From positions 1 through 64,000 of the forward strand of contig NZ_AOCK01000013.1 of NCBI RefSeq assembly GCF_000348945.1: a stretch of DNA of 64,000 nt, given 5' to 3'. Shown here piece after piece: positions 37,855-54,496 of the stretch (within the stretch, counting starts at the first letter, position 1; the number at the start of each line of letters is the position of its first letter). The DNA comes from Paeniglutamicibacter gangotriensis Lz1y (lineage in GTDB: Bacteria > Actinomycetota > Actinomycetes > Actinomycetales > Micrococcaceae). The position numbers and the translations under genes were made by a program. Under the pieces are notes generated by a model. The model was given only the letters and a program-made list of their open reading frames with translations. It searched no databases and was not told the DNA's origin.

Positions 37855-37867
37855 GCTGTTCCCCTGA

Positions 37868-38758: not shown

Positions 38759-38776
38759 GTTTTTCTCCGTTCGTTC

Positions 38777-39736
38777 CTAGGCCACGAGCGCGCGCGGTGC
38801 CCCGTGCGTTCCACTCTTGAGGATCCGTGGATCCAATAACGGGTACAGCAGATCAACGGCCAGGTTCACCACAACGAATGCCGTGGCCGTCAGCAGCACG
38901 AGCCCCTGAACCAGGGCCACGTCCTGCGCGGTGACGGCCTGCAGCACCACCTGGCCGAGGCCGGCGCGGGCAAACACCGTCTCGGTGATGACCGAACCGG
39001 CCAACAGGGTTCCGACGGTGATGCCGCTGATGGTCATGGCCGGCGCCGCAGCGTTTTTCAGGACGTGTCGGAAGAAGATCCAGGACGGCGAGGCGCCCTT
39101 GGCCCGCAACACATCCACGAACGGTTGTGTGTATACGTTGTCCACGCTCTTGAGCAGCACCTGCGCGATCGGGGCCGAGACATGGATTGCCAGGACCAAC
39201 ACCGGAACGGCGATCGAGGCGAAGGATCCGTCCGGGAAGAGCGACATGACACCGAGCTGGATGGACAACACCTGCAGGAGCACCAGTCCAAGCCAGAACA
39301 CCGGGACCGCAGCGAAAAGCGGCGGCAGGTTGATGATCAACCGCTTCAGCCACGCGTGGCGGGCCAACGTGGCAGCAGCGACCAACAGCACCGCGAACAG
39401 CACCGCGGTGACGAAGGCGCTGGAGGCCAGCACCAGCGTCGAGCCGACCACGGCGCCGATGCGTTCGGCGACCGGCTGGCCCGAGGCCAGCGAGTAGCCG
39501 AAGTCCCCGGTGAAGAGGCCGGCCAGTTGGCTGAAGTACTGCACGAGCAACGGCTGGTCGTAGCCGTACTGCGCCTTCATGGCGGCAATGGTGGCCGGGT
39601 CGGCCGCAGCATCGGCTGAAAGGAAGATCGTTACCGGGTCATTGGGCAGCAGCTGCACGGCCAGGAAGACCAGGGTGTAGGCAAGCCAAATGACCAGTAA
39701 TGCTTGTCCGATGCGTCGCGCGATGTATGCGGCCAT
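38777..39736 (-). CDS. Peptide/nickel-type ABC permease, DppB-like
   Basis: 319 residues with six membrane helices. The start AAYIARRIGQALLVIWLAYTL and the large extracytoplasmic loop between helices 1 and 2 (FLSADAAADPATIAAMKAQY) are typical of DppB/OppB. The ATPase-contact segment is FVDVLRAKGASPSWIFFRHV. Its start lies 6 bp beyond the binding-protein stop. Confidence 0.9.
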   Translation of the reverse strand: MAAYIARRIGQALLVIWLAYTLVFLAVQLLPNDPVTIFLSADAAADPATIAAMKAQYGYDQPLLVQYFSQLAGLFTGDFGYSLASGQPVAERIGAVVGSTLVLASSAFVTAVLFAVLLVAAATLARHAWLKRLIINLPPLFAAVPVFWLGLVLLQVLSIQLGVMSLFPDGSFASIAVPVLVLAIHVSAPIAQVLLKSVDNVYTQPFVDVLRAKGASPSWIFFRHVLKNAAAPAMTISGITVGTLLAGSVITETVFARAGLGQVVLQAVTAQDVALVQGLVLLTATAFVVVNLAVDLLYPLLDPRILKSGTHGAPRALVA

Positions 39737-39742
39737 GGTTGG

Positions 39743-41401
39743 CTACTTTCCGGTCTTCCAGGCGCCCTGGAAAATCGGGGCGGTGCCGGAGGTGAATTCA
39801 ATGTGCGCATCCGAATTGCCGCCGTAGACCTGGACTTCGTCCCACAAGACGAGGGACAGGGCCTTTTCGGTGACCAGCTGGCGCTGTTCCTCGGCGACAA
39901 GTTCCTTGTGCTCCGCGTCGCTGGTGGCGGCGCGTTCCTTGGCGAACAGCGCGTTGAGCTCGGTGTCGGCGTTCAGCGTCTGGGTGTTGTTGGCCGGCCC
40001 GAAGACCGGGCCCAGTCCGCCGTAGGCAAACTGGCGGGTTCCGAAGAACTCGATGTTCTTGTCGATCATGGCCGTGGCCAGGAAGGTGTTGTCGGCGGCG
40101 CGGTTGATGAGTTTGACGCCGATTTCGCGCCACTGTTGTTCGATCAATTCGAAGGCGGGCTTGATGACAACGGAGTTGTTCGAGCTGGTGATGGTGAGTT
40201 CCAGCTTCTTGCCGTCCTTCTCGCGGACGCCGTCGGCTCCCACGGCCCAGCCCGCCTCGTCAAGCAGGGCCTTGGACTTTTCGGGGTTGTAGGCCAGGTC
40301 CGCGGACAGGTCGATGAATCCGGGTGCCGCATGGTTCAGGACCGAGTCGGCAATGACGTAGCTGTCTGATAGCACCGTGTCCTTGATGGACTGGCGATCG
40401 ATTCCGGCCTGGAGCGCCTGGCGTACTTTGGCATCTGCGAGCGTGCCGCTGCCGATACGAACTGCTGCCATGTTGGTGGTCAAGTCAACGCCTTGGGCGG
40501 GAAGAACCTGGTCGCCGCTGCCCTTGAGCGCTTGCTCGTCCACGGGCTGGAGTCCGCGGACCAGGTCGACCTGGCCGGTTTGCACCGCACCCGCCCGGTG
40601 GGCCACCTCGGGCAGGTACTTCACCACGAGCTTGTCCAGGTATGCGGCTCCCTGGTTGGCGGCCGTTTCCGGGGCCCACTTGTAGTCGGCACGCTTGGCG
40701 AACGTGACCTCCTCATCGGTCTTCTCGGATTCGAAGACAAACGGGCCGGAGCCAACGATCTTGGCGATCGCCGACTGGCCGGCGTTATCCAGCTTCAGGG
40801 TGGCCGGGGAAACGAGGCCCGCGGTGACGGACGACGTGGCACGAAGGAAGTTGGCGTCCGGATCCTTGAGCGTGACCTTGACCTTGTTCTTTCCCACGAC
40901 TTCGGCGGATTTGTAGGCAGTGAAGTCGACGTTGGGTGCAACCTGTGCGTTCTTGATGCCCAGCCCCAGGGCGTCAAGGTTCCCCTTCACCGCTGCGGCA
41001 TCAAGTGCTGTGCCGTCGGAGAAAGTCACGCCATCACGAATCGTGAAGGTGAATTCGGTCTGGTCCTTGTTGGCGCCGAATTCCGAGGCAATCCAGCCCT
41101 CGAGCTTCCCCGTTTCAGTATTGAAGTAGGTCAGGCGGTCCAGCACGCTGTTCAGTACGTTGGATTTCTCATAGAAGCGCGCTGCCTGGGTCTGCCAGTT
41201 GTTGATCGGGGTGACCTCTGCATATACGAAGGTGCCACCCTGGACTGGTTCGGTGCTGACCGGGCCCGCGGCATTGCCCGCGGCCTGCCCGCCCGAACCG
41301 CAGGCGCTCAGCGCGAGGGTGGCAACGGAAAGGACGGTAAGGAGCTTGACGCCGAGGCTGGCGCGATCGCGCCGCTTCGCCGGTGGGTTGGTGTTTCCCA
41401 T
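39743..41401 (-). CDS. Peptide/nickel-type substrate-binding lipoprotein (SBP_bac_5)
   Basis: About 552 residues from the ATG at 41401; GAGAGGAAA lies 8 nt upstream, so the ATG seven codons further out (41422) was rejected. The signal peptide ends at lipobox LSAC. The SBP_bac_5 fold is recognisable from TQAARFYEKSNVLNSVLDRL, FTFTIRDGVTFSDGTAL and LDEAGWAVGADGVREKDGKK. Members bind peptides, nickel, opines or other small molecules; here the SAM riboswitch and neighbouring monooxygenases suggest an organosulfur ligand, which is inference. It is the first gene of the operon and follows a 108-nt leader after the riboswitch. Confidence 0.88.
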   Translation of the reverse strand: MGNTNPPAKRRDRASLGVKLLTVLSVATLALSACGSGGQAAGNAAGPVSTEPVQGGTFVYAEVTPINNWQTQAARFYEKSNVLNSVLDRLTYFNTETGKLEGWIASEFGANKDQTEFTFTIRDGVTFSDGTALDAAAVKGNLDALGLGIKNAQVAPNVDFTAYKSAEVVGKNKVKVTLKDPDANFLRATSSVTAGLVSPATLKLDNAGQSAIAKIVGSGPFVFESEKTDEEVTFAKRADYKWAPETAANQGAAYLDKLVVKYLPEVAHRAGAVQTGQVDLVRGLQPVDEQALKGSGDQVLPAQGVDLTTNMAAVRIGSGTLADAKVRQALQAGIDRQSIKDTVLSDSYVIADSVLNHAAPGFIDLSADLAYNPEKSKALLDEAGWAVGADGVREKDGKKLELTITSSNNSVVIKPAFELIEQQWREIGVKLINRAADNTFLATAMIDKNIEFFGTRQFAYGGLGPVFGPANNTQTLNADTELNALFAKERAATSDAEHKELVAEEQRQLVTEKALSLVLWDEVQVYGGNSDAHIEFTSGTAPIFQGAWKTGK

Positions 41402-41509
41402 GAGTATTTCCTCTCGGTTCACCCGAGGAACGCCGCGACACGGCCGATCATTCGAACACCCTACGAAAGCATCGGGGTATTCGGCGGACCGCGCAGAGTT
41501 TGGCTATCT

Positions 41510-41598
41510 CCATCGGTCCTGGCGGTAGCACCGGCTTCCCATGACGGGAGTGGTTGCTGCGGCGTCAACGAGCCAGGTCTCTCAGCCGCTCTGGATGG
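41510..41598 (-). promoter_or_regulatory. SAM riboswitch a (S-box)
   Basis: Read on the minus strand it starts CCATCCAGAGCGGCTGAGAG, has the S-box core GACGCCGCAGCAACC, then GGTGCTACCGCCAGG, and ends CGATGG, which pairs with the first CCATC to form P1. This is the SAM-I type aptamer; a covariance search would decide between SAM-I and SAM-IV. The start codon is 108 nt downstream and no terminator is evident between. The rest of the gap 41402-42026 shows only presumed promoter DNA. Confidence 0.88.
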
Positions 41599-42026
41599 TG
41601 TGTGCGCAAGATGGCTGGTTTGCCAACCTCGAACAGCTCAAGTGTGTCGCAGGATCTTCGATACGACCAACCAAAAAGCCCTCCGAATGAAACATTCCGA
41701 CGCACAGGGTGGATTTTGGCCCGGGATTGCTTCACGAAACGTCACAAGACGGATTGTGAAGCACGAATCACCAACGGCTTGCGTCATCGCCGCGTCATAG
41801 TGATAATGCAGGGGCCATGCTTCCTGGTGCAAGGCATGGCGCCGGAACCCCGGCGCGGTGGCCAAGGGTCGTCCGTTGCCAGGATTGGCTGGGGGCCCCG
41901 GGGGTTTTGGATCGAGCACCTCCCCACTCTCGGAATCCGGTCTCCCAACCACAGGAGCACACCTCTGCGCCGGGGAACAATGCGTGGCAGGATCAACTCA
42001 TGAAAAGCACACGATGACGGCGTTCG

Positions 42027-42650
42027 TTGCACCGCAGGCTGCGCGTCCTGGGAATGCTCGGTGCCGGCATTGCCGCCGCCGGCCTGACCGCTGCACTGGG
42101 CCAGTGGCTCTATGCGCCGGCAGTGGGCTGGACCATCGCGGCCCTGATCTACAACGTCACGGTGTGGCTGAGCATCGCACCCATGGACCATGTGCGAACA
42201 GCCGACCACGCCCAGGAAGAGGACCCCGGATTGCAGACCACCGACCTGCTGATCATCTTGGCCGCCGTCGGTTCGTTGGCGGCGGTTGTGCTGGTTATCG
42301 CCGGAAGCAAGGATGTGGCGGGATCGGCCAGGCTGCTACTGGCATTGTTTGCCCTGATGTGCACGGCGATGTCGTGGCTGATGGTTCACACGCTCTATAC
42401 GCTGCGCTACGCCACGATTTATTATGGCGCGGTTCCCGGTGGCATCAGCTTCAACCAGAACGAACCTCCGCAGTATACGGATATCGCCTACATGGCCTTC
42501 AGCGTCGGGATGACCTATCAGGTCTCGGACACCGATATCACCACCCGTGAGATGCGCTCGGCCGTTTTGCGCCACAGCCTGCTGGCGTTCCTCTTTGGCA
42601 CAGGCATCCTGGCCACGACCATCAACCTGGTCGTCAGCCTGGCCGCTTAA
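42027..42650 (+). CDS. DUF1345 family membrane protein
   Basis: 207 residues with about five membrane helices; conserved DUF1345 stretches are VHTLYTLRYATIYYG and YMAFSVGMTYQVSDTDI. Function unknown. The start is uncertain: the earliest in-frame start is TTG at 42027, just after an in-frame TGA at 42015, and an ATG nine codons later (42054) is possible. Neither has a good ribosome site. It lies between two minus-strand sulfur operons but points the other way, so it is probably unrelated to them. Confidence 0.75.
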   Translation: MHRRLRVLGMLGAGIAAAGLTAALGQWLYAPAVGWTIAALIYNVTVWLSIAPMDHVRTADHAQEEDPGLQTTDLLIILAAVGSLAAVVLVIAGSKDVAGSARLLLALFALMCTAMSWLMVHTLYTLRYATIYYGAVPGGISFNQNEPPQYTDIAYMAFSVGMTYQVSDTDITTREMRSAVLRHSLLAFLFGTGILATTINLVVSLAA

Positions 42651-42657
42651 ACGCCTC

Positions 42658-42692
42658 GGGTGGTGGCGCTCCCCCAAGCAGCGCCACCACCC
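42658..42692. terminator. Bidirectional terminator between convergent genes
   Basis: A perfect 13-bp stem (GGGTGGTGGCGCT and its complement) with a 9-nt loop between the DUF1345 stop and the flavin-monooxygenase stop. Confidence 0.8.
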
Positions 42693-42719
42693 AAAACTAC
42701 TGGCCGTAATTACGCCAAG

Positions 42720-44123
42720 CTACTTCACCCCGGCGTTGACGAACCGGTAGTTCGCCGCACGGTGCGAGTCTTGGACGCGGTCACCCTTGCCGAAGAGCTT
42801 GTTGCGCAGCGTTCCCTCGACGTAATCGGCCGGGTAAGCACCGCGGGCTTGCAGCTCGGGAACGATGAACTCGACGATGTCCTCGAAGGTGCCCGGGGTG
42901 ATGGCGTAGGCCAGGTTGAACCCGTCCACATCCGTTTCCTGGACCCAATCGATGAGTTTGTCGGCGACCTCGGTCGGCGAGCCCACGGTGATCGGGCCGA
43001 AGCCGCCAACACCTACCCATTCGGCCAGCTGGCGAATGGTCCAGGGGTTGCCGTCGTCTCCGCTGGCCTGCTGGAACATCTCAACGGACGACTGGATGGC
43101 GTTGGACTTCACGTTGGCACCGATGACGTCGTCCGGCCCATAGGTGGACAGGTCGACGCCCATCCAACCCGAGATCAGTGCCAGCGCCCCGTCGATGTCG
43201 GCATAGGACTTGTAGTCCTCGAACTTGGCCTGCGCGGCGGCGGAGTCCACATCGGTGATGATCGTCTGCATGGCGTAGATGCGCACGTCGTGGCGTCCAC
43301 GGCCGGCGGCCTCGGCGGCGTCGCGGATCTTGGTGACAGTCGCCTTGAGCATGTCCTTGGTGGGGCAGGTGACGAAGACCGCCTCGGCATTGGCCGCGGC
43401 GAACTTCATGCCGCGCGAGGAGGTTCCAGCCTGGAAGATCACCGGGGTGCGCTGCGGGCTGGGCTCGGTGATGGCGATGCCCGGGACCTTGAAGTACTTG
43501 CCCTCGTGGTTGATGTCATGGACCTTGGACGAGTCGGTGAAGATGCCGCGCTCGACGTCCTTCACCACCGCGTCTTCTTCCCAGGAACCCTCGAGCAGCT
43601 TGTAGACGACCTCGAGGTACTCGTCGGCATGGTTGTAGCGCTCGTCGTGCTCGAGCTGGTCTTCCTGGCCCATGTTCCGGGCAGCGGAGGGCAGGTAGCC
43701 GGTCACGACGTTCCAGCCGATGCGGCCCTTGGTCAGGTGGTCAAGGGTCGCCAAGCGGCGGGAGAAAGGGTACGGGTGTTCGTAGGAGGTGCTGGCGGTG
43801 ACGCCGAAGCCGAGGTTCTCGGTCACAGCGGCCATCGCGGAGACAAGCATGAGCGGGTCGTTGACCGGGACCTGGGCGCCGGTGCGCAGCGGAACCTCGT
43901 TGGATCCGCCGAAGACGTCGTAGGTGCCCAACACATCGGCGATGAAGATGCCGTCGAACTTGCCCTTTTCCAGGGTCTTGGCCAGATCGGTCCAGTAGGA
44001 CAGGTCCTTGTAGCGCGCGGACTGGTCCTTGGGGTGCTTCCATAGCCCTGGGGACTGGTGTCCGACGCAGTTCATGTCGAAGGCATTGAAGCGGATTTGG
44101 CGGGGGGCGGGATTCGTACTCAT
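42720..44123 (-). CDS. LLM-class flavin monooxygenase (NtaA/SnaA/DszA family), copy 2
   Basis: About 467 residues from the ATG at 44123 (AAGGACA upstream). Same family as the copy at 33516: RYKDLSYWTDLAKTLEKGKF, LDHLTKGRIGWNVVTGYLPS, and PQRTPVIFQAGTSSRGMKFA. It is closer to the DszA/SnaA subgroup, with the N-terminal FNAFDMNCVGHQSPGLW. It would cleave a C-S bond with FMNH2 and O2; substrate unknown. It follows a DszC-like gene after 79 bp, under SAM riboswitch b, and needs a flavin reductase that is not encoded here. Confidence 0.85.
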   Translation of the reverse strand: MSTNPAPRQIRFNAFDMNCVGHQSPGLWKHPKDQSARYKDLSYWTDLAKTLEKGKFDGIFIADVLGTYDVFGGSNEVPLRTGAQVPVNDPLMLVSAMAAVTENLGFGVTASTSYEHPYPFSRRLATLDHLTKGRIGWNVVTGYLPSAARNMGQEDQLEHDERYNHADEYLEVVYKLLEGSWEEDAVVKDVERGIFTDSSKVHDINHEGKYFKVPGIAITEPSPQRTPVIFQAGTSSRGMKFAAANAEAVFVTCPTKDMLKATVTKIRDAAEAAGRGRHDVRIYAMQTIITDVDSAAAQAKFEDYKSYADIDGALALISGWMGVDLSTYGPDDVIGANVKSNAIQSSVEMFQQASGDDGNPWTIRQLAEWVGVGGFGPITVGSPTEVADKLIDWVQETDVDGFNLAYAITPGTFEDIVEFIVPELQARGAYPADYVEGTLRNKLFGKGDRVQDSHRAANYRFVNAGVK

Positions 44124-44202
44124 TTTTGTCCTTCGCGGAGTGTTGGGTATTAACGGATCCGGTGATGCGCGGATCAAGTTTTTGGTTCGGGTGGTCGAAG
44201 TT

Positions 44203-45540
44203 TTACGGGACGCCGGTTGGTGGGGTCGCACCCACATCGCCAATGGCATTGAGTTGTTGCGGTGCCGTCCCGTTGACTTCGTAGTCACCGATGATGCGGG
44301 ACTTGTAGATGGCAGGGTTGTGGGTTGCCACGGTGCGCGCATTGCGCCAATGACGGTCCAGGTTGCAGCCCCTGGCCGTAGCCGATGCGCCAAGTCCGTC
44401 GAAGAGCTTGGTAGCCGCCGAGAGCACCAACGGTTGGACAACGGCCTGGGCTCTGTCGGCGGCGAGCTCACACACCGCGAACCGTTCGGCCGGGCTCAGC
44501 AACGCATCAGCCAACGCAACTTCGATCTCTGCCACGGAGGCCAGCACGATCGAGTCCACGGCAAACGCCGTTCCGGAGATTTCACCCACCAGCTGCAGCA
44601 CTTGGGGCTCCTCGCGCACCGGGACACCCGTACCGGTACTGAAGGACCGGGTCCGGGCCTGGACCGAGGAGCGCACGTCGTTGAGCACCGCACGGGCGAT
44701 TCCGGCCTGGACCCCGAGGAGCACCAGCTGGAAGATCGAGGATTCCGGATCATTGATCTGCTGTTCGTCGGGCAGGATCGTGTCGACAGGAACGTTCTCG
44801 AAGGTGGTCGAGCCCGTACCGGTGAGCTGCTGGCCGAAACCGTCCCAGTCATCGAAGATCTTGACCCCGGAATGCTGCGTGGAGACCACGGCGATCTGCC
44901 GTCCGGCCCGTGCCGGGTGGGCCACAGCCACGGCGACCCAATCGGCGTAGATCGTGCCGGTGCAATAATACTTTTCCCCGTTGAGAATCCAGCGCTCTCC
45001 GGACCGGGTGATGGTGGTGTTCAGGGTCCCCAACTGGTTGCCGCCGCGCTCGGTATAGGCGTTGCCGACGATCTGCCCGGCCACGATGCGTTCGATCCAG
45101 CGATGCCGGACGGCTTCGTCCTGGAGCTGAAGCACCGATTCCACGAAACCTATGTGCGAACGCCACAGGTGAGCCACCTGCGAGTCGGCTTCGCCGAGCT
45201 CGATGAGCAGGCGGAACAGATCCAACAGACTGGCTCCGTAGCCGCCCTCGCTTTCCGGGATGCGCAGGGCACCGAAGCGCACACGATTCAGCCATCCGAC
45301 GGGTTCGAAGGGAAGAATCCTGCCGGCATCGCGTTCGCTGGCGCCCTCCGCGATCTTGGCGAAGACCGGACGGAATATCGCGGCCAGCTCATCATAGTGC
45401 CCGTCCCGGGGCACCCCGGGTGTGAGCTTGAGCAGATGGCGCGCAGGCGTGCTGCTGGTGAAGGCATCAAGGGTGACGCCCCCAAAAATGTTCGGGTCTG
45501 TTTCGACCAGGTGTGCCTCGGCGTACGACTCAACAGCCAT
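44203..45540 (-). CDS. Acyl-CoA-dehydrogenase-fold flavin monooxygenase (DszC/SfnB-like), copy 2
   Basis: About 445 residues from the ATG at 45540. It has the same DszC-group features as the copy at 34935: LRIPESEGGYGASLLDLFRL, WILNGEKYYCTGTIYADWVAV and the hallmark HWRNARTVATHNPAIYKSR. The N-terminal 35 residues are extra compared with copy 1. The start lies only 9 nt after riboswitch b, and the ribosome site GGAGAG shares bases with the P1 stem, so translation should be blocked when SAM is bound. It forms an operon with the DszA-like gene at 42720. Confidence 0.83.
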   Translation of the reverse strand: MAVESYAEAHLVETDPNIFGGVTLDAFTSSTPARHLLKLTPGVPRDGHYDELAAIFRPVFAKIAEGASERDAGRILPFEPVGWLNRVRFGALRIPESEGGYGASLLDLFRLLIELGEADSQVAHLWRSHIGFVESVLQLQDEAVRHRWIERIVAGQIVGNAYTERGGNQLGTLNTTITRSGERWILNGEKYYCTGTIYADWVAVAVAHPARAGRQIAVVSTQHSGVKIFDDWDGFGQQLTGTGSTTFENVPVDTILPDEQQINDPESSIFQLVLLGVQAGIARAVLNDVRSSVQARTRSFSTGTGVPVREEPQVLQLVGEISGTAFAVDSIVLASVAEIEVALADALLSPAERFAVCELAADRAQAVVQPLVLSAATKLFDGLGASATARGCNLDRHWRNARTVATHNPAIYKSRIIGDYEVNGTAPQQLNAIGDVGATPPTGVP

Positions 45541-45549
45541 AAATTCTCT

Positions 45550-45640
45550 CCATCGGTTCTGGCGTGAGCACCTACCGCCCAATGAAGGGGAGGGGTTGCT
45601 GCGGCGTCATCGAGCCAGATCTCTCGGCCGCTCTGGATGG
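45550..45640 (-). promoter_or_regulatory. SAM riboswitch b (S-box)
   Basis: On the minus strand: CCATCCAGAGCGGCCGAGAG, GATGACGCCGCAGCAACC, a longer P3 arm, GGTGCTCACGCCAG, and closing CGATGG pairing with CCATC. The final GG of P1 is also the start of the ribosome site GGAGAG, and the ATG follows at once, which implies translational control without a separate expression platform. Confidence 0.9.
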
Positions 45641-46067
45641 TTGTTGGTCATATTTCTACACGGCCCGGCGCGGCGGTGACAACCCGGTTCGTCACACTTG
45701 AAGGGTGCGTCACAGGACAAAACGCGATTCCCGGGCCGTCGAGGCAAGGGAGGAGCACCGGCGCACCGGCATTCCGCCAGCCGTTCGTTCGATGGCGGCG
45801 GGAGCAATGTTGGAGACCCCTGCACCAGAGGCCCCGTATGCCACCGGCCCGCTGTGCACGAGTTCCCGGGGTCTATGCCGACGATCCCGAGTACGGCATC
45901 CGCTGCCTGTCTCTCTCAAAGTCCCACAATCTGATTGAACGAATGATCCACGATTTTCCGCAGATCATTCGACACAGGATTGTTAATTTCCTTCTTGTCG
46001 AACATTCCGTCATATTACGACGGGTTTGCTCCAATGGCGCCACATCGACTTTGATAGGGGTCATAAG
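45641..46067. promoter_or_regulatory. Divergent promoter region between riboswitches b and c
   Basis: This 427-bp gap must hold the promoters of both the DszC-like and the ssuBAC operons. No credible gene was found. The right part (about 45930-46020) is richer in A+T, fitting promoter DNA. I could not assign boxes or a CysR/McbR-like operator. Confidence 0.4.
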
Positions 46068-46151
46068 CCATCCCGAGCGGCCGAGAGATCTGGCTCTATG
46101 ACGCCGCAGCAACCACCTTTTTGAGGCCGGTGCTACCGCCAGGTCCGATGG
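46068..46151 (+). promoter_or_regulatory. SAM riboswitch c (S-box)
   Basis: CCATCCCGAGCGGCCGAGAG, TATGACGCCGCAGCAACC, GGCCGGTGCTACCGCCAGG and closing CGATGG form the aptamer. GATGG of P1 runs directly into the ribosome site GGAGAG, and the ATG of the ATPase gene starts 7 nt after P1, so SAM binding should hide the ribosome site. Confidence 0.92.
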
Positions 46152-46158
46152 AGAGATC

Positions 46159-46971
<813 letters not shown>

Positions 46972-47068
46972 TCCGGCACCCAGGCACAGCCATTTCGCTT
47001 CACATCCCTCGCATCTCTTGAACGGCCGTCATTCTTGGCATGCGTTCACCCACTCAAGGAATTCACCC

Positions 47069-48097
47069 ATGAACCGAAACTTCTTCACACGCCGCACCCT
47101 CATTGCCACCACCGCACTGGCGGCTGCAACCGCGTTGCTGACCGGTTGCGCCGGCGAAGGCTCCGGCGCCGCCAGCGCCGAGGCAGCCACGACCCTCAAC
47201 ATCGACTTCGCCACCTACAACCCGTTGTCCCTGGTGCTCAAGGAAAAGGGATGGTTGGAAGCCTCGCTGACGGACCAGGGCGTCACCGTCAACTGGGTGC
47301 AGTCGGCCGGTTCGAACAAGGCCAACGAAGCGCTTCGCGCGGGGGCAATCGACGTGGGATCCACCGCGGGATCCGCCGCCTTGCTGGCCCGGTCCAACGG
47401 TTCCTCGATCAAGACCATCGACATCTATTCGCAGCCAGAATGGGCTGCCTTGGCCGTTGCCAAGGACTCACCCATCAAGGAAGTGAGCGAGCTCAAGGGC
47501 AAGTCGGTCGCCGCCACCAAGGGCACGGATCCTTACTTCTTCTTGCTGCAGGCCCTGGAACAGGCAGGCCTTGGCCCGGACGATGTGACCGTGGAGAACC
47601 TCCAGCACGCCGATGGCCGCGCCGCCCTGGAGAACGGTTCCGTGGATGCCTGGAGCGGATTGGACCCGATCATGGCCGGCGCGGAGGAGAATGGCGCCAC
47701 CTTGATCTACCGCAACCTGGATTTCAACACCTATGGTGCCTTGAACGCGACGGAATCCTTCCTGAAGGATTCGCCGGAAATCGCCCAGGTCGTGGTGGAC
47801 TCCTACGAAAAGGCCCGCGAATGGGCGGCCGAGAACCCGAAGGAAACCGCCACGGTCCTCGCCGACGTGGCGGGGCTGGAAACACCGGTTGCCGACAAGG
47901 TGATCCTCGAGCGTTCCAACCTTGATGTCTCCGCGGTGCCCGGCCAAAAGCTGGTCGACGTCTTGGCTGTCGTGGGACCGATCTTTGTCGAGACCGGCGA
48001 TGTCACCAACCAGGCCAAGGTCGACAAGGCCTTGGGTTCGCTCATCGATGATTCCTTCGCCAAGAAGGCCGACGCCTCGAAGGTCAAGGGTTCGTAA
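47069..48097 (+). CDS. ssuA: Sulfonate-type ABC binding lipoprotein (SsuA-like)
   Basis: About 342 residues from the ATG at 47069 (AAGGA upstream). A Tat-like RR pair (FFTRRTLIATTALAAA) precedes the lipobox LLTGC. The fold is the NMT1/SsuA type: KANEALRAGAIDVGSTAGSA and VAATKGTDPYFFLLQALEQA are diagnostic. It captures aliphatic sulfonates or taurine outside the cell for SsuBC. A longer frame to 46781 overlaps the ATPase gene and is spurious. Its stop overlaps the permease start (TAATG). Confidence 0.88.
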   Translation: MNRNFFTRRTLIATTALAAATALLTGCAGEGSGAASAEAATTLNIDFATYNPLSLVLKEKGWLEASLTDQGVTVNWVQSAGSNKANEALRAGAIDVGSTAGSAALLARSNGSSIKTIDIYSQPEWAALAVAKDSPIKEVSELKGKSVAATKGTDPYFFLLQALEQAGLGPDDVTVENLQHADGRAALENGSVDAWSGLDPIMAGAEENGATLIYRNLDFNTYGALNATESFLKDSPEIAQVVVDSYEKAREWAAENPKETATVLADVAGLETPVADKVILERSNLDVSAVPGQKLVDVLAVVGPIFVETGDVTNQAKVDKALGSLIDDSFAKKADASKVKGS

Positions 48098-48918
48098 TGT
48101 CGACAGACTCGTCCCTCGACACCAGGGAAGCGACGCCGACCAGCACCTCCGGGTCGCGGATCCCAGGCTCCGCCCTGGGCCGCATCGGGCTCGGCGCACT
48201 GGTGCCGCTGCTTGTCCTCGCCCTGTGGCAAAGCGCCACCTCCCTCGGCTGGGTCACCTCCGCACAGCTCCCATCCCCGGCTTCGGTGTATTCGGCCGCA
48301 GTGGACCTGATCGAGCGCGGGGAACTTGCCACGCACATCGGCATCTCCACCCAACGCGTCTTGGTGGGCTTCGCCATCGGTGCGGTGCTTGGGCTTGGTT
48401 TTGGCGCCTTGGTCGGGCTCTCGCGGCTAGCCGACGCCTTGCTTGGCCCGACCATCGGGGCCTTCCGTGCGGTGCCGTCGTTGGCTTGGGTTCCCCTGCT
48501 GATCCTGTGGATGAAGATCGGTGAGGACTCGAAAATCACGCTGATTGCCATCGGTGCCTTCTTCCCGGTGTTCACCACCGTGTACCTGGCGCTGCGCCAT
48601 GTGGACAAGAACCTGATCGAAGCCGGACGTGCCTTTGGCCTCAAGGGGATCAAGTTGCTGACCACCATCCAGCTTCCCGCCGTGGTTCCTGCAATATTCT
48701 CCGGCCTCCGGCTCGCCCTGGCACAGGCATGGCTTTTCCTGGTGGCCGCGGAACTGATCGCGTCTTCCATGGGACTTGGCTTCCTGCTCACCGATTCACA
48801 GAACAACGGCCGGATCGACAGACTGATTCTGGCAATCATCCTGCTGGCTGTGATCGGCAAGGCCACCGATGCACTGGTGGGTCTGGCCGAACGCTGGGCC
48901 GTCAAGCGCTGGGCCTAA
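48097..48918 (+). CDS. ssuC: Sulfonate-type ABC permease (SsuC-like)
   Basis: 273 residues with about six membrane helices after a 30-residue cytoplasmic start. The ATPase-contact loop is NLIEAGRAFGLKGIKLLTTI, and FRAVPSLAWVPLLILWMKIG is typical of SsuC/TauC. It is translationally coupled to ssuA by the TAATG overlap. The 105 bp to the next gene contain riboswitch d and no terminator, so the acs-type gene is probably part of the same transcript with its own extra control. Confidence 0.9.
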   Translation: MSTDSSLDTREATPTSTSGSRIPGSALGRIGLGALVPLLVLALWQSATSLGWVTSAQLPSPASVYSAAVDLIERGELATHIGISTQRVLVGFAIGAVLGLGFGALVGLSRLADALLGPTIGAFRAVPSLAWVPLLILWMKIGEDSKITLIAIGAFFPVFTTVYLALRHVDKNLIEAGRAFGLKGIKLLTTIQLPAVVPAIFSGLRLALAQAWLFLVAAELIASSMGLGFLLTDSQNNGRIDRLILAIILLAVIGKATDALVGLAERWAVKRWA

Positions 48919-48932
48919 AGCCAACCAACCAC

Positions 48933-49016
48933 CCATTTCGAGCGGCCGAGAGTTCTGGCTTGATGACGCCGCAGCAACCACCTTGTCGAGGCCGGTGCCA
49001 CTGCCAGGAGAAAAGG
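48933..49016 (+). promoter_or_regulatory. SAM riboswitch d (S-box), inside an operon
   Basis: CCATTTCGAGCGGCCGAGAG, GATGACGCCGCAGCAACC, GGCCGGTGCCACTGCCAGG, and GAAAAGG, which pairs with CCATTTC except for one A-A mismatch. The closing strand contains the ribosome site AAGGA of the following gene, whose ATG is 7 nt further on. P1 is weaker than in the other four copies, so the switch may respond at higher SAM. Confidence 0.85.
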
Positions 49017-49023
49017 ATAAAAA

Positions 49024-50994
49024 ATGACTGAAACTCTGTCCCCCGCAGCCGGCATAGCCGACGATGAAACTTGGACCGAAGACGAACGCCTCGCGTTCTG
49101 GGACGCCGCGGCGCGGCGCCTGAGCTGGTCCGATCACTGGCACACTACCCACACCAGCACCGGCGTCGACGCCGCGGCGCGCCGAGGCCCCGAGCTGCGC
49201 TGGTTCGAGGGCGGCAAGCTCAATGCCGCCTACAACTGCGTGGACCGCCATGTGGAGGCCGGCCGCGGCGACAAGGTCGCCCTGCACTTCGAGGGCGAGC
49301 CCGGCGACAGGACCACCGTCACCTACCAGGACCTGCAGGACCGAGTCTCCCAGGCGGCCAATGCGCTGCTGGCCCTGGGCATCACCAAAGGGGACCGCGT
49401 GGTCGTCTACCTGCCGGTGCTCATCGAGACCATTGTCATCACCCTGGCCTGCGCCCGCATCGGCGCGGTGCATTCGCTGGTCTTCGGCGGGTTCTCCGCC
49501 GAGGCGCTGAAGTTCCGCGTCGAGGACACCGGTGCGAAGCTCCTGGTCACCACCGACGGACAGTTCCGCCGCGGGAGCGCCGTTCCGGTCAAGGACAATG
49601 CCGATGCCGCGGTCTCCGGGGAGAACAGCATCGAGCATGTGCTGGTTCTGCGCCGCACCGGGTCGGAGATCGCTTGGACCGAGGGTCGGGATGTGTGGTG
49701 GCACGAGGCGGTCGACACGGCAAGCACCAAACATGTGCCCGAGGCCTTCGACGCAGAGACTCCCTTGTTCATTATGTATACCTCTGGGACCACCGGCCAG
49801 CCCAAGGGGCTGGTCCACACCACCGGCGGCTACCTGACCCAGACCTCGTGGAGCCACGAGTTCCTCTTCTCAAATCCGGATGCCTCGCAACGCGAGAACG
49901 ATGTCCACTGGTGCACCGCGGACCTGGCTTGGGTCACCGCCCACACCTATGAGATCTACGGCCCCCTATCCAACGGCGTCACCCAAGTCATCTACGAGGG
50001 CGTGCCCAATGCTCCGCACCCAGGCCGACACTTCGAGATCATCCAGCGTTACGGCGTAACCAGCTACTACACCGCGCCCACCCTGGTGCGCTCACTGATG
50101 GGCTGGTTCCCCGACGGCGTCCCCGCCGCATACGACCTCTCCTCGATCCGCTTGTCCGGCACCGTCGGCGAGGCAGTAAACCCGGAAGCATGGCGCTGGC
50201 TGCGTAGCCAGGTCGGGCGCGACACCGCGGCCGGCATCCCGATGGTCGACACCTGGTGGCAGTCCGAAACCGGCGCCACCATCCTCTCCCCGCGTCAGGA
50301 CGACACCGCGTTCAAGCCGGGTTGCGGTACCCGTGCCCTCCCGGGGGTGGAGGTAGACATTGTCGACGATGCCGCTCAAACCGTGGAAAAGAACCTGCAG
50401 GGCTACATCGTGGTGACCAAGACCGGGCCCGCCATGGCCCGCACTGTCTGGGGGAACCCCGAGCGCTACTTCACCAGCTACTGGGAGAAGTACGCGCAGC
50501 AGGGCTGGTTCCTGGCCGGCGACGGCGCACGCTTCGACGAAGACGGGGACATCTGGATCTTGGGTCGCACCGACGATGTCATCAACATTTCCGGGCATCG
50601 CCTCTCCACCATCGAGATCGAATCGGCTTTGGTCACCCACCCGGCCGTGGTCGAGGCCGGGGTATGCCCCATCAGCGATGCGAAGACCGGGCATGCTGCA
50701 ACGGCGTTTGTTGTGCCGTTCGACAAATCCGTGGTGGGAACGGACTTGAGTGGCAAAGCGCTGGAAAAGCAACAGGCCCTGGTCGCCGAACTGCGCAACC
50801 ACGTGGCAACCCAGATCGGGCCCATCGCCAAGCCACGAGAAATCGTTTTCGTGCCCGACGTACCCAAGACCCGCTCTGGAAAGATCATGCGCCGGCTGCT
50901 GACCCAGCTCTTCGAGGGAAGCACCCTGGGTGACACCACCAGCCTGCAGAACGAACCGTGTATCGCACAGATCAAGGAGATCTGCGACGCCTGA
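49024..50994 (+). CDS. acs: Acetyl-CoA synthetase-type AMP-forming acid-CoA ligase
   Basis: 656 residues, full length for Acs. The adenylate motif is YTSGTTGQPKGLVH, the middle has DTWWQSETG with the acetate-pocket Trp, and the C-terminal KTRSGKIMRRLL holds the catalytic Lys that is commonly acetylated. It activates acetate (or a related short acid) to its CoA ester with ATP. Its SAM riboswitch is unexpected for plain acetate metabolism: it may recycle acetate released by metY-type sulfhydrylation, or act on a carboxylate left after desulfonation. Which acid is used cannot be told. Confidence 0.85.
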   Translation: MTETLSPAAGIADDETWTEDERLAFWDAAARRLSWSDHWHTTHTSTGVDAAARRGPELRWFEGGKLNAAYNCVDRHVEAGRGDKVALHFEGEPGDRTTVTYQDLQDRVSQAANALLALGITKGDRVVVYLPVLIETIVITLACARIGAVHSLVFGGFSAEALKFRVEDTGAKLLVTTDGQFRRGSAVPVKDNADAAVSGENSIEHVLVLRRTGSEIAWTEGRDVWWHEAVDTASTKHVPEAFDAETPLFIMYTSGTTGQPKGLVHTTGGYLTQTSWSHEFLFSNPDASQRENDVHWCTADLAWVTAHTYEIYGPLSNGVTQVIYEGVPNAPHPGRHFEIIQRYGVTSYYTAPTLVRSLMGWFPDGVPAAYDLSSIRLSGTVGEAVNPEAWRWLRSQVGRDTAAGIPMVDTWWQSETGATILSPRQDDTAFKPGCGTRALPGVEVDIVDDAAQTVEKNLQGYIVVTKTGPAMARTVWGNPERYFTSYWEKYAQQGWFLAGDGARFDEDGDIWILGRTDDVINISGHRLSTIEIESALVTHPAVVEAGVCPISDAKTGHAATAFVVPFDKSVVGTDLSGKALEKQQALVAELRNHVATQIGPIAKPREIVFVPDVPKTRSGKIMRRLLTQLFEGSTLGDTTSLQNEPCIAQIKEICDA

Positions 50995-50998
50995 GGTT

Positions 50999-51646
50999 TC
51001 AGCCCCCGATTTCGAGGTACGCCATGGCCCCGCGGCGAGTGAGGCGGACCGGGCCGAGTTCGGCGGCCCGCGCTTGGTCAAAGAGTTCGGCTCCGGTACG
51101 TGCGGCGGCAATGTCACCATGGTTCTTCAGCAGGCCCAGATACGCATTTGACCAACTGGAGGCCTCGACCAAGGAGCCCAGATACATGGTTCCGTTGGGA
51201 GCCAGCTGCTGTCCCAGTGCTGCCACCACCGCTGGCACATCCGGCACCAGATGCAGCAGACCGAGACCAAGGATCGTGTCATAGCGTTTGTTTCCGGTCG
51301 CGGCGAGCATGTCCCGGCATTCCAGGGAGATCCTGTCCGGCAGCGTACCCCCGGCTGCCCGGGCAATGGACCGTCCGGCCAATGCCAGCATCGGCGCGCT
51401 CATGTCCACCAATGTCGTCTCACGCGAGCTGGCGACATGAAGTGTCGCGGTGGCCTGCGCCGTACCGACGGCGACTTCGAGCAGCGGCCCCCGCCTGGAC
51501 CCGATGGCCCGGGCAGCAAACTGGGCATAGTGCCGGGGGTTGGTTCCCCAGAAGATCCTGTTGTACAGAGCTGAGCCGACCATCGCGTCGTAGGCCTTCG
51601 CCCAACGGGCGTAATACTCCGGATCCCCAAAAAAGGTTTCGTCCAT
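50999..51646 (-). CDS. Class I SAM-dependent methyltransferase
   Basis: 215 residues. Motif I is LLEVAVGTAQATATL (a variant of E/DxGxGxG), followed by TTLVDMSAPML (motif II Asp) and YDTILGLGLLHLVPDVPAVV (motifs III/IV), so a UbiE-type Rossmann methyltransferase. Substrate unknown. It converges with the acs-type gene with only 4 bp between stops. It sits 32 bp downstream of the histidine phosphatase gene on the same strand. Confidence 0.85.
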   Translation of the reverse strand: MDETFFGDPEYYARWAKAYDAMVGSALYNRIFWGTNPRHYAQFAARAIGSRRGPLLEVAVGTAQATATLHVASSRETTLVDMSAPMLALAGRSIARAAGGTLPDRISLECRDMLAATGNKRYDTILGLGLLHLVPDVPAVVAALGQQLAPNGTMYLGSLVEASSWSNAYLGLLKNHGDIAAARTGAELFDQARAAELGPVRLTRRGAMAYLEIGG

Positions 51647-51678
51647 GCCAACATGGTGCGCTTTGGGAATGCCGTTTT

Positions 51679-52230
51679 CTAGTGCACGGGTGTGCCGAAG
51701 TATTCCCGTAGTTTCGCGACGTCCACGTGGACGCTTTCGCCGTTGCGCAGGATCGTGCTCCGGGTCCCACCGGTGATGGTGTCCAAGGCCAAGCGGATCA
51801 GCGTTCCGTGTGCCACAGCCACGATGCGCCGGCCTTCGTGGCGCTGGACGAGTTCGTGAAGAACTGCCAACCCACGGCTTGCCACGACTTCCTCGGGCTC
51901 GGCGGAGCGCAGCAGTTCATCGATCCGCGGGCGTGGAAGATCACGCACCACTTTTCCCTCGGCGTCGCCATAATGGCGTTCCTTCAGGTCCTCGAATTTT
52001 TCGGTGAGAGCCAGATCAAGCTTCCGTCCGATCAGTTCGGCCGTCTCAATGGCCCGCCCCAGCGAGGAAGAGACCAAAACGTCCCACGAATCCGCGCCAA
52101 GTTCCAGGCCGGCTGCGCGGGCCTGTTCCCGGCCCAAGTCGTTGAGCGGAATATCCGTTTGCCCCTGCAAGCGGCCTTCCGCGTTCCACGCAGTCTCGCC
52201 GTGCCTAACCAAAACCAATGTTGCACCCAT
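51679..52230 (-). CDS. Histidine phosphatase family protein (phosphoglycerate-mutase-like)
   Basis: About 183 residues from the ATG at 52230, chosen because LVLVRHGETAWNAEGRLQGQ starts right after it, as in the family; a longer frame to 52416 would run across riboswitch e. The RHG motif (residues 9-11) carries the phospho-acceptor His, and the second His lies in VAVAHGTLIRLAL. The branch includes CobC-like and broad-specificity phosphatases; substrate unknown. It is divergent from the metY riboswitch. Confidence 0.88.
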   Translation of the reverse strand: MGATLVLVRHGETAWNAEGRLQGQTDIPLNDLGREQARAAGLELGADSWDVLVSSSLGRAIETAELIGRKLDLALTEKFEDLKERHYGDAEGKVVRDLPRPRIDELLRSAEPEEVVASRGLAVLHELVQRHEGRRIVAVAHGTLIRLALDTITGGTRSTILRNGESVHVDVAKLREYFGTPVH

Positions 52231-52363
52231 ACCCACAAGCTTACCGGGCGGGAATGGCGTCCCACATTGATGCAGGATCTTCGATTTGTCGATCCCACCA
52301 CGCAACCTAAGCTCACATTCTTTGGCCATGGACCATTTTCTTGCCACAATGGATCGCAGACCA

Positions 52364-52453
52364 CCATCCCGAGCGGCCGAGAGATCTGGCTCACCGACGC
52401 CGCAGCAACCTTCCACACTCCGGTGGACAAGGTGCTACCGCCAGAAACGATGG
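52364..52453 (+). promoter_or_regulatory. SAM riboswitch e (S-box) before metY
   Basis: CCATCCCGAGCGGCCGAGAG, CGACGCCGCAGCAACC, a long P3 arm, GGTGCTACCGCCAG and closing CGATGG. The metY ATG is 175 nt further on, so control cannot work by hiding its ribosome site in P1. The spacer has a moderate hairpin (GGTCCATG with CATGGAACC) but no T-run. Confidence 0.9.
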
Positions 52454-52628
52454 AGAGCGCGCAAGCAATCTTTGGTGCCGACCGCCCCACGGGGTCCATG
52501 TGACCCATGGAACCGGCGGCAGGCATTGTTCCCGGGAAGATCCGCCATACAGCCCCACACCTCAGGGCACGGCAGTCCACTGACAGTGGAACGCCGCACC
52601 CGCACATGCAAGGAGTCAGCCACCGATC

Positions 52629-53999
52629 ATGGCCGAACATCAATTTGGATTCCGTACGCGCGCACTGCACGCCGGCGGCACGCCCGACGCCGAGCACGGC
52701 TCACGCGCCGTGCCGATCTATCAGACCACCTCGTTTGTCTTCAAGGATTCCGACGATGCCGCGAACCTCTTTGCGCTGCAAAAGTACGGCAACATCTACT
52801 CGCGGATCGGCAACCCGACGGTCGCCGCCTTCGAGGAGCGCATCGCTTCGCTCGAAGGAGGAATCGGCGCGGTGGCCACCGCGTCGGGCATGTCGGCCGA
52901 GTTCATCACCTTCGCGGCGCTGACCGGCGCCGGGGACCACATCGTGGCCTCCTCCAAGCTCTACGGCGGCACCATCACCCAGTTGGATGTGACCCTGCGC
53001 CGCTTCGGCGTAGAAACCACCTTCATCGACTCCACGGATCCGGCCGAATTCGCCGCCGCCATCCGGGAGAACACCAAAGCGATCTACACCGAGATCGTTG
53101 CCAACCCTTCCGGAGAGATCGCCGACCTCAAGGGCCTGGCCACGGTCGCCCGTGAAGCCGGCATCCCGCTGGTGGTCGACTCGACGATGACTCCCCCGTA
53201 CCTGTTGCGGCCCATCGAACACGGTGCTGACATCGTGATCCACTCCGCCACCAAGTTCCTCGGCGGGCACGGCACCACCCTGGGCGGGGTTGTCGTTGAA
53301 TCGGGCACCTTCAACTGGGGCAACGGCAAGTTCCCGTCCATGACCGAGCCGGTGGCCTCCTACGGGAATGTCTCGTGGTGGGACAACTTCGGCGAATACG
53401 GCTTCCTGACCAAGCTGCGCTCCGAACAGCTGCGTGACATCGGGCCCGCTCTGCCGGCACAGTCCGCGTTCCAACTGCTGCAGGGCGTCGAGACCTTGCC
53501 CCAGCGCATGGACTCGCACCTGTCCAATGCCATTGCCGTGGCCAACTGGCTCGAAGCCGATGATCGCGTCAGCTACGTGAACTTCGCCGGGCTCCCGTCC
53601 CACCCGCATTACGAACGCGCCAAGGAGCTACTGCCCCTGGGCGTCGGCTCGGTGTTCAGCTTCGGCGTCAAGGGTGGGCGTGCCGCAGGGTCCACCTTCA
53701 TCGAGGCGTTGCAGTTGGCCAGCCACCTGGCCAACATCGGCGATGTGCGCACCCTGGTGCTGCACCCGGCCTCCACCACCCACCAGCAGCTTTCCGCCGA
53801 CCAACTGGCCGCAGCAGGCGTCCCGGAGGATCTGATCCGCCTCTCCGTAGGCTTGGAGGATCTCGACGACATCCTCTGGGACTTGGACCAGGCCTTGACC
53901 GCTTCCCAGCAAGCGGCTTCGGCCCCGGCCGAGGAAAGCTATGACGGGGCGGCCTGCTCCGTGGATGCGGCCCGCGCCGCCGTGACAGGAGCCAAGTAA
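52629..53999 (+). CDS. metY: O-acetylhomoserine sulfhydrylase (aminocarboxypropyltransferase)
   Basis: 456 residues, PLP enzyme of the Cys/Met metabolism family, MetY branch. The PLP lysine lies in HSATKFLGGHGTTLGG; RTRALHAGGTPDAEHGSRAV and IYQTTSFVFKD at the N-terminus are typical. It joins sulfide to O-acetyl-L-homoserine to give homocysteine and acetate, the direct-sulfhydrylation route to methionine. A 25-residue Ala-rich tail is extra. It is controlled by riboswitch e. CAAGGAG precedes the ATG, and its stop overlaps the next start (TAATG). Confidence 0.93.
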   Translation: MAEHQFGFRTRALHAGGTPDAEHGSRAVPIYQTTSFVFKDSDDAANLFALQKYGNIYSRIGNPTVAAFEERIASLEGGIGAVATASGMSAEFITFAALTGAGDHIVASSKLYGGTITQLDVTLRRFGVETTFIDSTDPAEFAAAIRENTKAIYTEIVANPSGEIADLKGLATVAREAGIPLVVDSTMTPPYLLRPIEHGADIVIHSATKFLGGHGTTLGGVVVESGTFNWGNGKFPSMTEPVASYGNVSWWDNFGEYGFLTKLRSEQLRDIGPALPAQSAFQLLQGVETLPQRMDSHLSNAIAVANWLEADDRVSYVNFAGLPSHPHYERAKELLPLGVGSVFSFGVKGGRAAGSTFIEALQLASHLANIGDVRTLVLHPASTTHQQLSADQLAAAGVPEDLIRLSVGLEDLDDILWDLDQALTASQQAASAPAEESYDGAACSVDAARAAVTGAK

Positions 54000-54496
54000 T
54001 GACCGCAACAGCCATCCGCAGCTGGGTCGGACCGAACGCCGCCGAACGTCTAGAAATCCTGCGCAACACCAAGTCGATTGCGATCGTGGGCGCCTCCAAC
54101 AAGCCTTCGAGGGCCAGTTACTTCGTGGCCACTTACCTGCTCTCATCGTCCAAGTACAAGGTCTACTTCGTGAACCCCGTGCTAGATGAGATCCTGGGCC
54201 AGCCTGTCTACAAGTCCCTTGCCGATCTGCCCGAGGCTCCCGACCTGGTCGAGGTTTTCCGTAAGCACGACGATCTACCCGGGGTGCTGGAGGAGACGCT
54301 CGCCGCAGGCGCCAAGACCTTATGGCTGCAGCTGGGTACCTGGCACGAGGAGGTCGCGGCCCGGGCCGAAGCCAACGGGCTGAACGTGGTGATGGACCGT
54401 TGCGTGAAGATCGAACATGCCCGATTCCATGGCGGACTGCGTCTGGCCGGTTTCAACACCGGAGTCATTTCTTCCAAGCGCCAGTTGCTCGCGTAA
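53999..54496 (+). CDS. CoA-binding protein, YccU type, coupled to metY
   Basis: 165 residues with the CoA-binding Rossmann domain: KSIAIVGASNKPSRASYFVA, LVEVFRKHDDLPGVLEETLA, TLWLQLGTWHEEVAARAEA and VVMDRCVKIEH. Its start overlaps the metY stop, so the two are made together, which suggests a shared role. How a CoA-binding protein helps sulfhydrylation is unknown. A paralogue (32956) follows the other sulfur operon. A terminator follows at 54516. Confidence 0.88.
   Translation: MTATAIRSWVGPNAAERLEILRNTKSIAIVGASNKPSRASYFVATYLLSSSKYKVYFVNPVLDEILGQPVYKSLADLPEAPDLVEVFRKHDDLPGVLEETLAAGAKTLWLQLGTWHEEVAARAEANGLNVVMDRCVKIEHARFHGGLRLAGFNTGVISSKRQLLA

Follow-up and report, generated by a model that had tools for sequence, protein, structure and literature searches.

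The window analysed here, 64 kb of the 4.32-Mb genome of Paeniglutamicibacter gangotriensis Lz1y, carries five aptamers of the S-adenosylmethionine (SAM) riboswitch clan, each of which precedes an operon or cistron for sulfur uptake, C-S cleavage, homocysteine synthesis or CoA ligation (Acs) (Table 1). On the minus strand, one switch heads an importer of the Opp/Ddp type (36217-41401) and another heads the first SfnB-like gene, followed by that of an NtaA/DmoA monooxygenase; the latter switch stands back to back with the ssuB switch in a single divergent intergenic region (45547-46154). On the plus strand, the ssuB switch heads an importer of the Ssu type (46159-48918), a fourth aptamer separates ssuC from acs and the fifth lies upstream of metY. 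An earlier note on this DNA had named both importers correctly, and also the Acs-type ligase and metY, whose products score over the cut-offs of TIGR02188 and TIGR01326. It had further placed two DszC-like and two DszA-like monooxygenases under the switches: both pairs exist, but only one protein of each kind is encoded within 41510-54496, the second pair being found at 33570-36137 on the minus strand. Being on the same strand and right behind the importer, these second SfnB-like and NtaA-like genes look like members of the operon headed by the 41507 switch.

Because the TIGR04022 score of the first SfnB/DszC-like protein is below the curated cut-off, its name stays "SfnB-like"; it is 91% identical to its relatives in P. 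quisquiliarum and P. sulfureus. The NtaA/DmoA-like gene probably starts downstream of the start of its open reading frame (ORF). The AcsA-like ligase has paralogs elsewhere in the genome (52% and 37%). A role as a sulfur-compound ligase was considered for it, but a special substrate is not favoured, as its DTWWQSETG motif suggests, by its tryptophans, an acetate-type pocket. A DUF1345 gene (42027-42650, plus strand) runs the other way in the space that separates the two sulfur operons of the minus strand.

Table 1. Switches, leader elements and genes of the sulfur region of the window (R1, variant covariance model described in the text; SD, Shine-Dalgarno sequence).
Feature	Position	Strand	Match or basis
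Second NtaA/DmoA/DszA-like flavin monooxygenase	33570-34934	-	tblastn 40.7% to the first NtaA-like protein
Second SfnB/DszC-like oxidoreductase	34965-36137	-	tblastn 48.7% to the first SfnB-like protein
Importer ATPase, fused ORF	36217-38091	-	
Importer permeases	38777-39736, 37868-38758	-	
Importer substrate-binding protein (SBP_bac_5)	39743-41401	-	best TIGR04028, 369.3 bits, below cut-off 468.5
Candidate sequestering hairpin UUCCUCGG-GUGAA-CCGAGAGGAA with SD of the substrate-binding protein gene	41408-41430	-	predicted from sequence
P4-less SAM-I-type aptamer upstream of the Opp/Ddp-type importer genes	41507-41601	-	RF00162 57.7 bits; R1 99.6 bits
P1 of the importer aptamer	CCATC 41594-41598 with GATGG 41510-41514	-	
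NtaA/DmoA-family flavin mononucleotide (FMN)-dependent monooxygenase (DszA-like)	ORF 42720-44471	-	TIGR03860 545.8 bits, over cut-off 279.7
SfnB-like (DszC-like) sulfur acquisition oxidoreductase, ATG at 45540	44203-45540	-	TIGR04022 261.5 bits, below cut-off 430.9
P4-less SAM-I-type aptamer upstream of sfnB	45547-45643	-	RF00162 55.6 bits
P4-less SAM-I-type aptamer upstream of ssuB	46065-46154	+	RF00162 55.3 bits
SsuB-like ATPase, ATG at 46159	46159-46971	+	
SsuA-like binding protein	ORF 46781-48097	+	
SsuC-like permease	48097-48918	+	
Diverged P4-less aptamer between ssuC and acs	48930-49019	+	RF00162 40.6 bits, below gathering score 44.4; R1 78.5 bits
AcsA-like AMP-forming acyl-CoA ligase with DTWWQSETG	49024-50994	+	TIGR02188 767.3 bits, over cut-off 724.95
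P4-less SAM-I-type aptamer upstream of metY	52361-52456	+	RF00162 57.7 bits, E 9.8e-11
Conserved block just behind the metY P1, like GAGAGCGCGCAAGCAATCTTTGG	52454-52475	+	in 11 of 12 genus metY leaders
MetY (O-acetylhomoserine sulfhydrylase)	52629-53999	+	TIGR01326 587.7 bits, over cut-off 495.1
CoA_binding_2 protein after metY	53999-54496	+	

Five aptamers in the window and a sixth elsewhere

In covariance-model searches, including an Rfam scan of the whole window, RF00162 (SAM; gathering score 44.4 bits) matches at all five places, which bears out the earlier call of five SAM-clan aptamers as well as its coordinates, correct to within about 3 bases. Four of the five exceed the gathering score (55.3-57.7 bits), while the acs element, matched at 48930-49030 on the plus strand with E-values of 3.7e-8 in a 251-base search and 1.5e-7 in the whole genome, falls short of it. 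All five also match R1, a variant covariance model built in this analysis (99.6, 99.0, 97.1, 95.5 and 78.5 bits), although this search is not independent for them, given that they are among the 60 training rows of the model. The CCAT P1 stems described earlier are present in four elements, but the acs element has CCATT/AAAGG with an A.A mismatch. A sixth RF00162 match (49.0 bits) is found on another contig, upstream of a MetF-like gene (TIGR00676, 227.8 bits, below the cut-off of 293.7).

A SAM-I aptamer without P4

For comparison, 179 copies from the Micrococcaceae were fetched: all 91 RF00162 places (weak ones included) of 15 genomes of the genus, and 88 places from 26 other genomes, the latter being part of those listed for a 61-genome family sample. 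P4 is absent from all five window elements, and a P4-less pattern fits 176 of the 179 copies, the other three being diverged in P1 and, by eye, P4-less as well. The spacing from GGTGC to P1 is 12-14 nucleotides (nt) in 168 copies (three gave 18-20 nt and eight did not parse); it is 24-35 nt, with P4 in between, in the 30 best-scoring copies at the level of the class. In an alignment of 60 hand-chosen copies out of the 179, which includes the five of the window, standard pairs fill 99.8% of the pair cells and double changes occur at seven pairs (three in P2a, one in P2b, two in the L2-J3/4 pseudoknot and one in P1), compared with a shuffled mean of 1.3 and with none of 500 shuffles reaching as many. 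The pairs of P2a, P2b and the pseudoknot are kept in 100% of cells, every one of these helices showing compensatory changes, and a kink-turn-like P2 is present, as judged from sequence only in the RF00162 alignments. P1 is the 5-base-pair helix CCAUC/GAUGG in 59 of the 60 rows, the exception being the acs element of the window; both of its outer pairs are CG in all 60 rows, whereas P2a varies.

Could the elements belong to SAM-IV (RF00634) or SAM-I/IV (RF01725), and merely be filed by Rfam under SAM-I? A passage of PMC6890682 describes SAM-IV as lacking P4 and gaining a second pseudoknot, PK-2, linked to P5, and SAM-I/IV as lacking PK-1 and having P4. The missing P4 is therefore shared with SAM-IV, as are the actinobacterial occurrence and a short P1 (four pairs in the solved SAM-IV, according to the same passage). 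The window elements nevertheless keep a kink-turn-like P2 and are unmatched by RF00634, which has five matches elsewhere in the genome with E up to 0.001, four of these exceeding the cut-off, and none in the window; neither PK-2 nor P5 was seen by eye behind their P1, where the coding start leaves little room in those copies that have it close by. With SAM-I/IV they share the clan core but have the opposite architecture, the L2-J3/4 pseudoknot (PK-1) being present and covarying and P4 being absent, and RF01725 has no match in the genome. Both classes, the models of which the earlier note had suggested running, were rejected since neither model matches any of the five elements, and we regard such a membership as highly improbable.

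What the elements do share with SAM-I is the core, the kink-turn-like P2, P3 and the L2-J3/4 pseudoknot and, where the start codon is near, also a ribosome-binding site (RBS) on the 3' side of P1. Nevertheless, these are not standard SAM-I aptamers: P4 is absent and P1 is a short, near-fixed helix with Shine-Dalgarno (SD) bases. They further differ from the usual form in being present in multiple copies per genome, many of them upstream of organosulfur genes, whereas class-level SAM-I is mostly matched once per genome, the next gene being a threonine synthase in all four cases scanned of the 30 copies. Most of these 30 have a purine-rich stretch (often GAGG or GAAGGG) in or right behind GATGAG, followed by the start codon. 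With P4 absent, PK-1 kept and the SAM-IV and SAM-I/IV models unmatched, we place the window elements on the SAM-I branch, as a variant that lacks P4, and not in a new riboswitch class, an assignment that is well supported at the level of sequence.

Recurrence in the Micrococcaceae

RF00162 matches number 4-7 per genome in all 15 sampled genomes of the genus, mostly close together, and R1 finds the variant in 121 of 149 family genomes, covering 27 of 32 genera, with at least two matches in most of the genomes that have one, among those listed. The genes behind the fetched family switches are mostly organosulfur and methionine genes. A pair of switches within about 600 bases, like that of sfnB and ssuB, recurs in 13 of 15 Micrococcaceae SfnB loci; in L168 the two are about 1.2 kb apart and in L167 the sequence ends early. 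P4-less switches are also seen upstream of MetE-like (Meth_synt_2) genes at L077 (1057-2307), L145 (1214-2425) and relatives. Several copies per genome are a family habit, and no peculiarity of this genome. The notion of one organosulfur regulon stands insofar as five aptamers precede sulfur genes and such switches recur in all 15 genus genomes, but it is not locally complete: the MetF-like gene with the sixth switch and four SAM-IV matches lie elsewhere in the genome.

Three of these SAM-IV matches precede, respectively, a gene pair for a MetY-like cysteine/methionine pyridoxal phosphate enzyme and MetX, a gene for a flavin reductase such as two-component monooxygenases require, and OsmC; the fourth match scores 62.7 bits. 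SAM-IV is carried by all 15 genus genomes. In three relatives (G003, G007 and G009), it is a P4-less switch that lies directly upstream of OsmC, versus SAM-IV in this genome, so that targets seem to be shared or exchanged between the two classes of SAM riboswitch.

In a class sample, RF00162 matches in 168 of 246 genomes, and R1 exceeds 60 bits in six of the genomes outside the family (68.5-86.8 bits in five and 61.4 in one), the other non-family genomes among the matches listed reaching at most 53.6 bits under strict filters. The six outside copies are P4-less by eye, with different P1 sequences. Neighbouring ORFs, scanned for five of the six, have an aliphatic-sulfonate ATPase as best model, below cut-off, at L214 and L218, but encode a peroxiredoxin at L215 and acetyltransferase and 2-oxoglutarate-oxygenase/halogenase-like proteins at L217 and L219, so that organosulfur use is not the rule there. 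In other families of the same order, neither RF00162 nor R1 matches in any of the 19 genomes listed. The gene set itself resembles the sfn, ssu and dsz organosulfur systems in its SfnB-, NtaA/DmoA- and SsuABC-like genes and differs from them in that SAM-type riboswitches precede the genes here. In Proteobacteria, sfn, ssu and dsz genes are controlled by transcription activators. When R1 was run on 11 Pseudomonas SfnB loci, nothing scored above 15 bits.

These distributions bear on another explanation, namely that the aptamers now bind a different ligand, or that they are relics in decay which recent duplication has preserved, the genes being under a transcription factor. The loss of P4 could be taken in this sense, as could the acs copy, which is below the Rfam threshold here and weak in three relatives (R1 53.5 bits in L154 at 1535, 51.2 in L158 at 2041 and 22.8 in L155 at 2042, minus strand, still upstream of acs each time), suggesting that the acs switch in particular may be eroding. 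For the type as a whole, however, compensatory changes across 60 copies have preserved both the core and the pseudoknot, and most family genomes have it, and we consider this explanation quite unlikely.

Predicted control of translation through P1

We predict that the elements are SAM-responsive OFF switches that act through P1 at the level of translation, which we regard as probable. Abundant SAM would close the P1 helix CCAUC/GAUGG, the 3' strand of which carries SD bases, and would thereby repress translation of the genes for organosulfur scavenging and homocysteine synthesis. In a direct mode (sfnB, ssuB and probably acs), the closed P1 would bury the SD itself, making a separate expression platform unnecessary. 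In a distal mode (importer and metF), the SD-like P1 3' strand would, when SAM is scarce, pair with the anti-SD arm of a downstream hairpin and free the real SD, whereas SAM would close P1, allowing the hairpin to form and translation to stop.

The RBS-in-P1 arrangement is clear at sfnB, where the SD GGAG starts inside the P1 3' strand, and at ssuB, where the SD is inside P1; it is seen by eye at acs, where the SD AAAAGGA overlaps the diverged P1 3' strand. It is absent at the importer and metY switches, the start codons of which are 105 and 172 nt behind the aptamer. Over the 179 copies, a script that chooses start codons mechanically found 96 with a start codon 8-19 nt past the first G of the P1 GG and an ORF of at least 90 codons (73 ATG, 17 GTG and 6 TTG; two of the ORFs under 150 codons). 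The best anti-SD match of these 96 overlaps GATGG in 80, is just behind it in 14 and is separate in 2. The direct arrangement depends on the gene, classed by the best tblastn match to window proteins (matches of low identity denoting distant relatives only): it is found in 25/25 ssuB-like, 27/36 sfnB-like, 16/20 acs-like and 9/20 NtaA-like copies, in 0/16 copies before the importer substrate-binding protein, in 2/20 metY and 4/12 OppDF/MetN-like copies (the "OppDF" class being partly MetN-like ATPases) and in 13/30 others, the acs copies of the window and of G003 being scored as distal only owing to their diverged P1. Direct attenuation of translation by an RBS inside the P1 3' side is described in a passage of Barrick and Breaker, 2007, and the mechanism is therefore already known; at sfnB and ssuB we hold it to be very likely. 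Several genus copies show a further start-site arrangement, in which a possible small GGCAATTGCC hairpin lies between GATGGAAAG and the ATG.

An alternative is that the switches act on transcription, by intrinsic or Rho-dependent termination, and that SD bases stand in P1 only by coincidence. At about 100-170 nt, the leaders of the importer, metY and metF would have room for an attenuator, and the metY leader is without a detectable SD hairpin. The direct class, in contrast, has no room for a terminator given the spacing of its start codons, and the P1 of the acs aptamer begins 14 nt past the ssuC stop codon, that is, between two cistrons, which fits translational control. In a pattern scan of 41300-41720, 45500-46200 and 52250-52680, which hold the leaders of the four strong switches, the strand of the switch moreover proved free of terminator-like sites; the first region has two such sites, both of them antisense to the switch. 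An intrinsic terminator is thus an unlikely means of attenuation in the scanned leaders and was rejected as a candidate, and we consider transcriptional control unlikely as a whole.

Importer leaders have a hairpin of the type UCCUCGG-loop-CCGAGAGGA just upstream of the start codon, and metF leaders have one of the type CUCCCUCG-loop-CGAGGAG. The 5' arm of these hairpins can pair either with the SD or, if one base is bulged or mismatched, with the sequence CGA(U)GGAG of the P1 3' strand; in the importer hairpin of the window, it is also complementary to the P1 3' strand CCGA(U)GGAG, with which it could form a duplex. Antisequestors in general are described in a passage of PMC2258182. When own and foreign partners were compared, the P1 tail was found to pair better with its own anti-SD arm (mean -18.8 versus -16.2 kcal/mol in 12 representatives). 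Permuting tails and arms gave pairings as strong in none of 10,000 trials with 23 leaders, in 1 of 10,000 with the 12 representatives and in 12 of 10,000 when the run was repeated after cutting the tail at a slightly different place, while three control segments put through the same test showed no excess (8471-9952 of 10,000). SD accessibility with and without the P1 3' strand was computed by partition-function folding for 38 of the 83 leaders called distal by script (18 were dropped for having no SD near the assumed start, including the metY leader of the window, and the other 27 had no usable start): freeing the P1 strand makes the SD more accessible in 12 of 13 metF leaders, although often by little.

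In the metY leader, no convincing SD hairpin or antisequestor was found, and the only Rfam match besides the aptamer is at chance level (E 5.5). The GAGAGCGCGCAAGCAATCTTTGG-like block just behind P1, which is changed in two of the 11 leaders that have it and absent in G006, is a candidate part of a metY expression platform of a third type, apart from the direct and distal modes. Similar blocks are also seen upstream of other genes in G002, G051, G029 and G058.

A number of observations weigh against the translational proposal: (i), P4, a part of the four-way junction of SAM-I, is missing, SAM binding by a P4-less aptamer being itself a prediction, and covariation hardly tests P1 because this helix is nearly invariant; (ii), the own-versus-foreign test used 23 hand-picked leaders of the 83, metY and hairpin-less leaders being left out; a 9-nt tail restricted to the shared core abolishes the effect (2266 of 10,000), which means that the duplex signal stems from the extension beyond the SD-like core, and for the importer tail of the window 12 of 22 foreign arms, several of which are near copies, are equal or better partners; (iii), compared with shuffled tails, the gain in accessibility ranks among the highest 10% in just 5 of 13 metF, 6 of 16 importer and 0 of 7 metY leaders, and the SD of the window's own importer leader is equally accessible in both states (0.40 versus 0.40); (iv), metY is explained by neither the direct nor the distal mode; and (v), a promoter scan of the same leader regions gave no sigma-70-like site, a result that says little in this group. 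Given that folding lends the distal mode weak support, and none for the importer leader of the window, we hold it for the importer and metF to be about evenly balanced. The use of one SD-like P1 strand in both ways may be the new part of the mechanism.

Discussion

Among the titles listed from the openly licensed literature, none names a SAM-riboswitch organosulfur regulon of this kind; in passages of a broad regulon survey, Actinobacteria are represented only by Corynebacteriaceae and Mycobacteriaceae (PMC3766115). While the switch type is known, its trimmed P4-less form, of which a single bacterial family holds many copies, may be a variant not yet described. Our fuller proposal is tentative and, in our estimate, a little short of an even chance: a P4-less SAM-I subclass would have expanded in the Micrococcaceae, in which one fixed P1 strand serves either as the RBS or, by mimicking an SD, as a competitor for the anti-SD in a hairpin further downstream. 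Such a module could be inserted upstream of any gene, also between cistrons, and would have taken over from transcription factors as the master control of organosulfur scavenging.

If this is true, the Micrococcaceae would hold a compact natural series of translational riboswitches with the same aptamer and P1 strand, with and without an expression platform, and evolution from the direct to the antisequestor arrangement could be tested by swapping leaders. Regulation by a common switch would also provide a guilt-by-regulation handle on SfnB-, NtaA- and Acs-like enzymes that are still unassigned, and the use of organic sulfur (sulfonates, sulfones and thioethers) in soil actinobacteria would be tied to the level of SAM.

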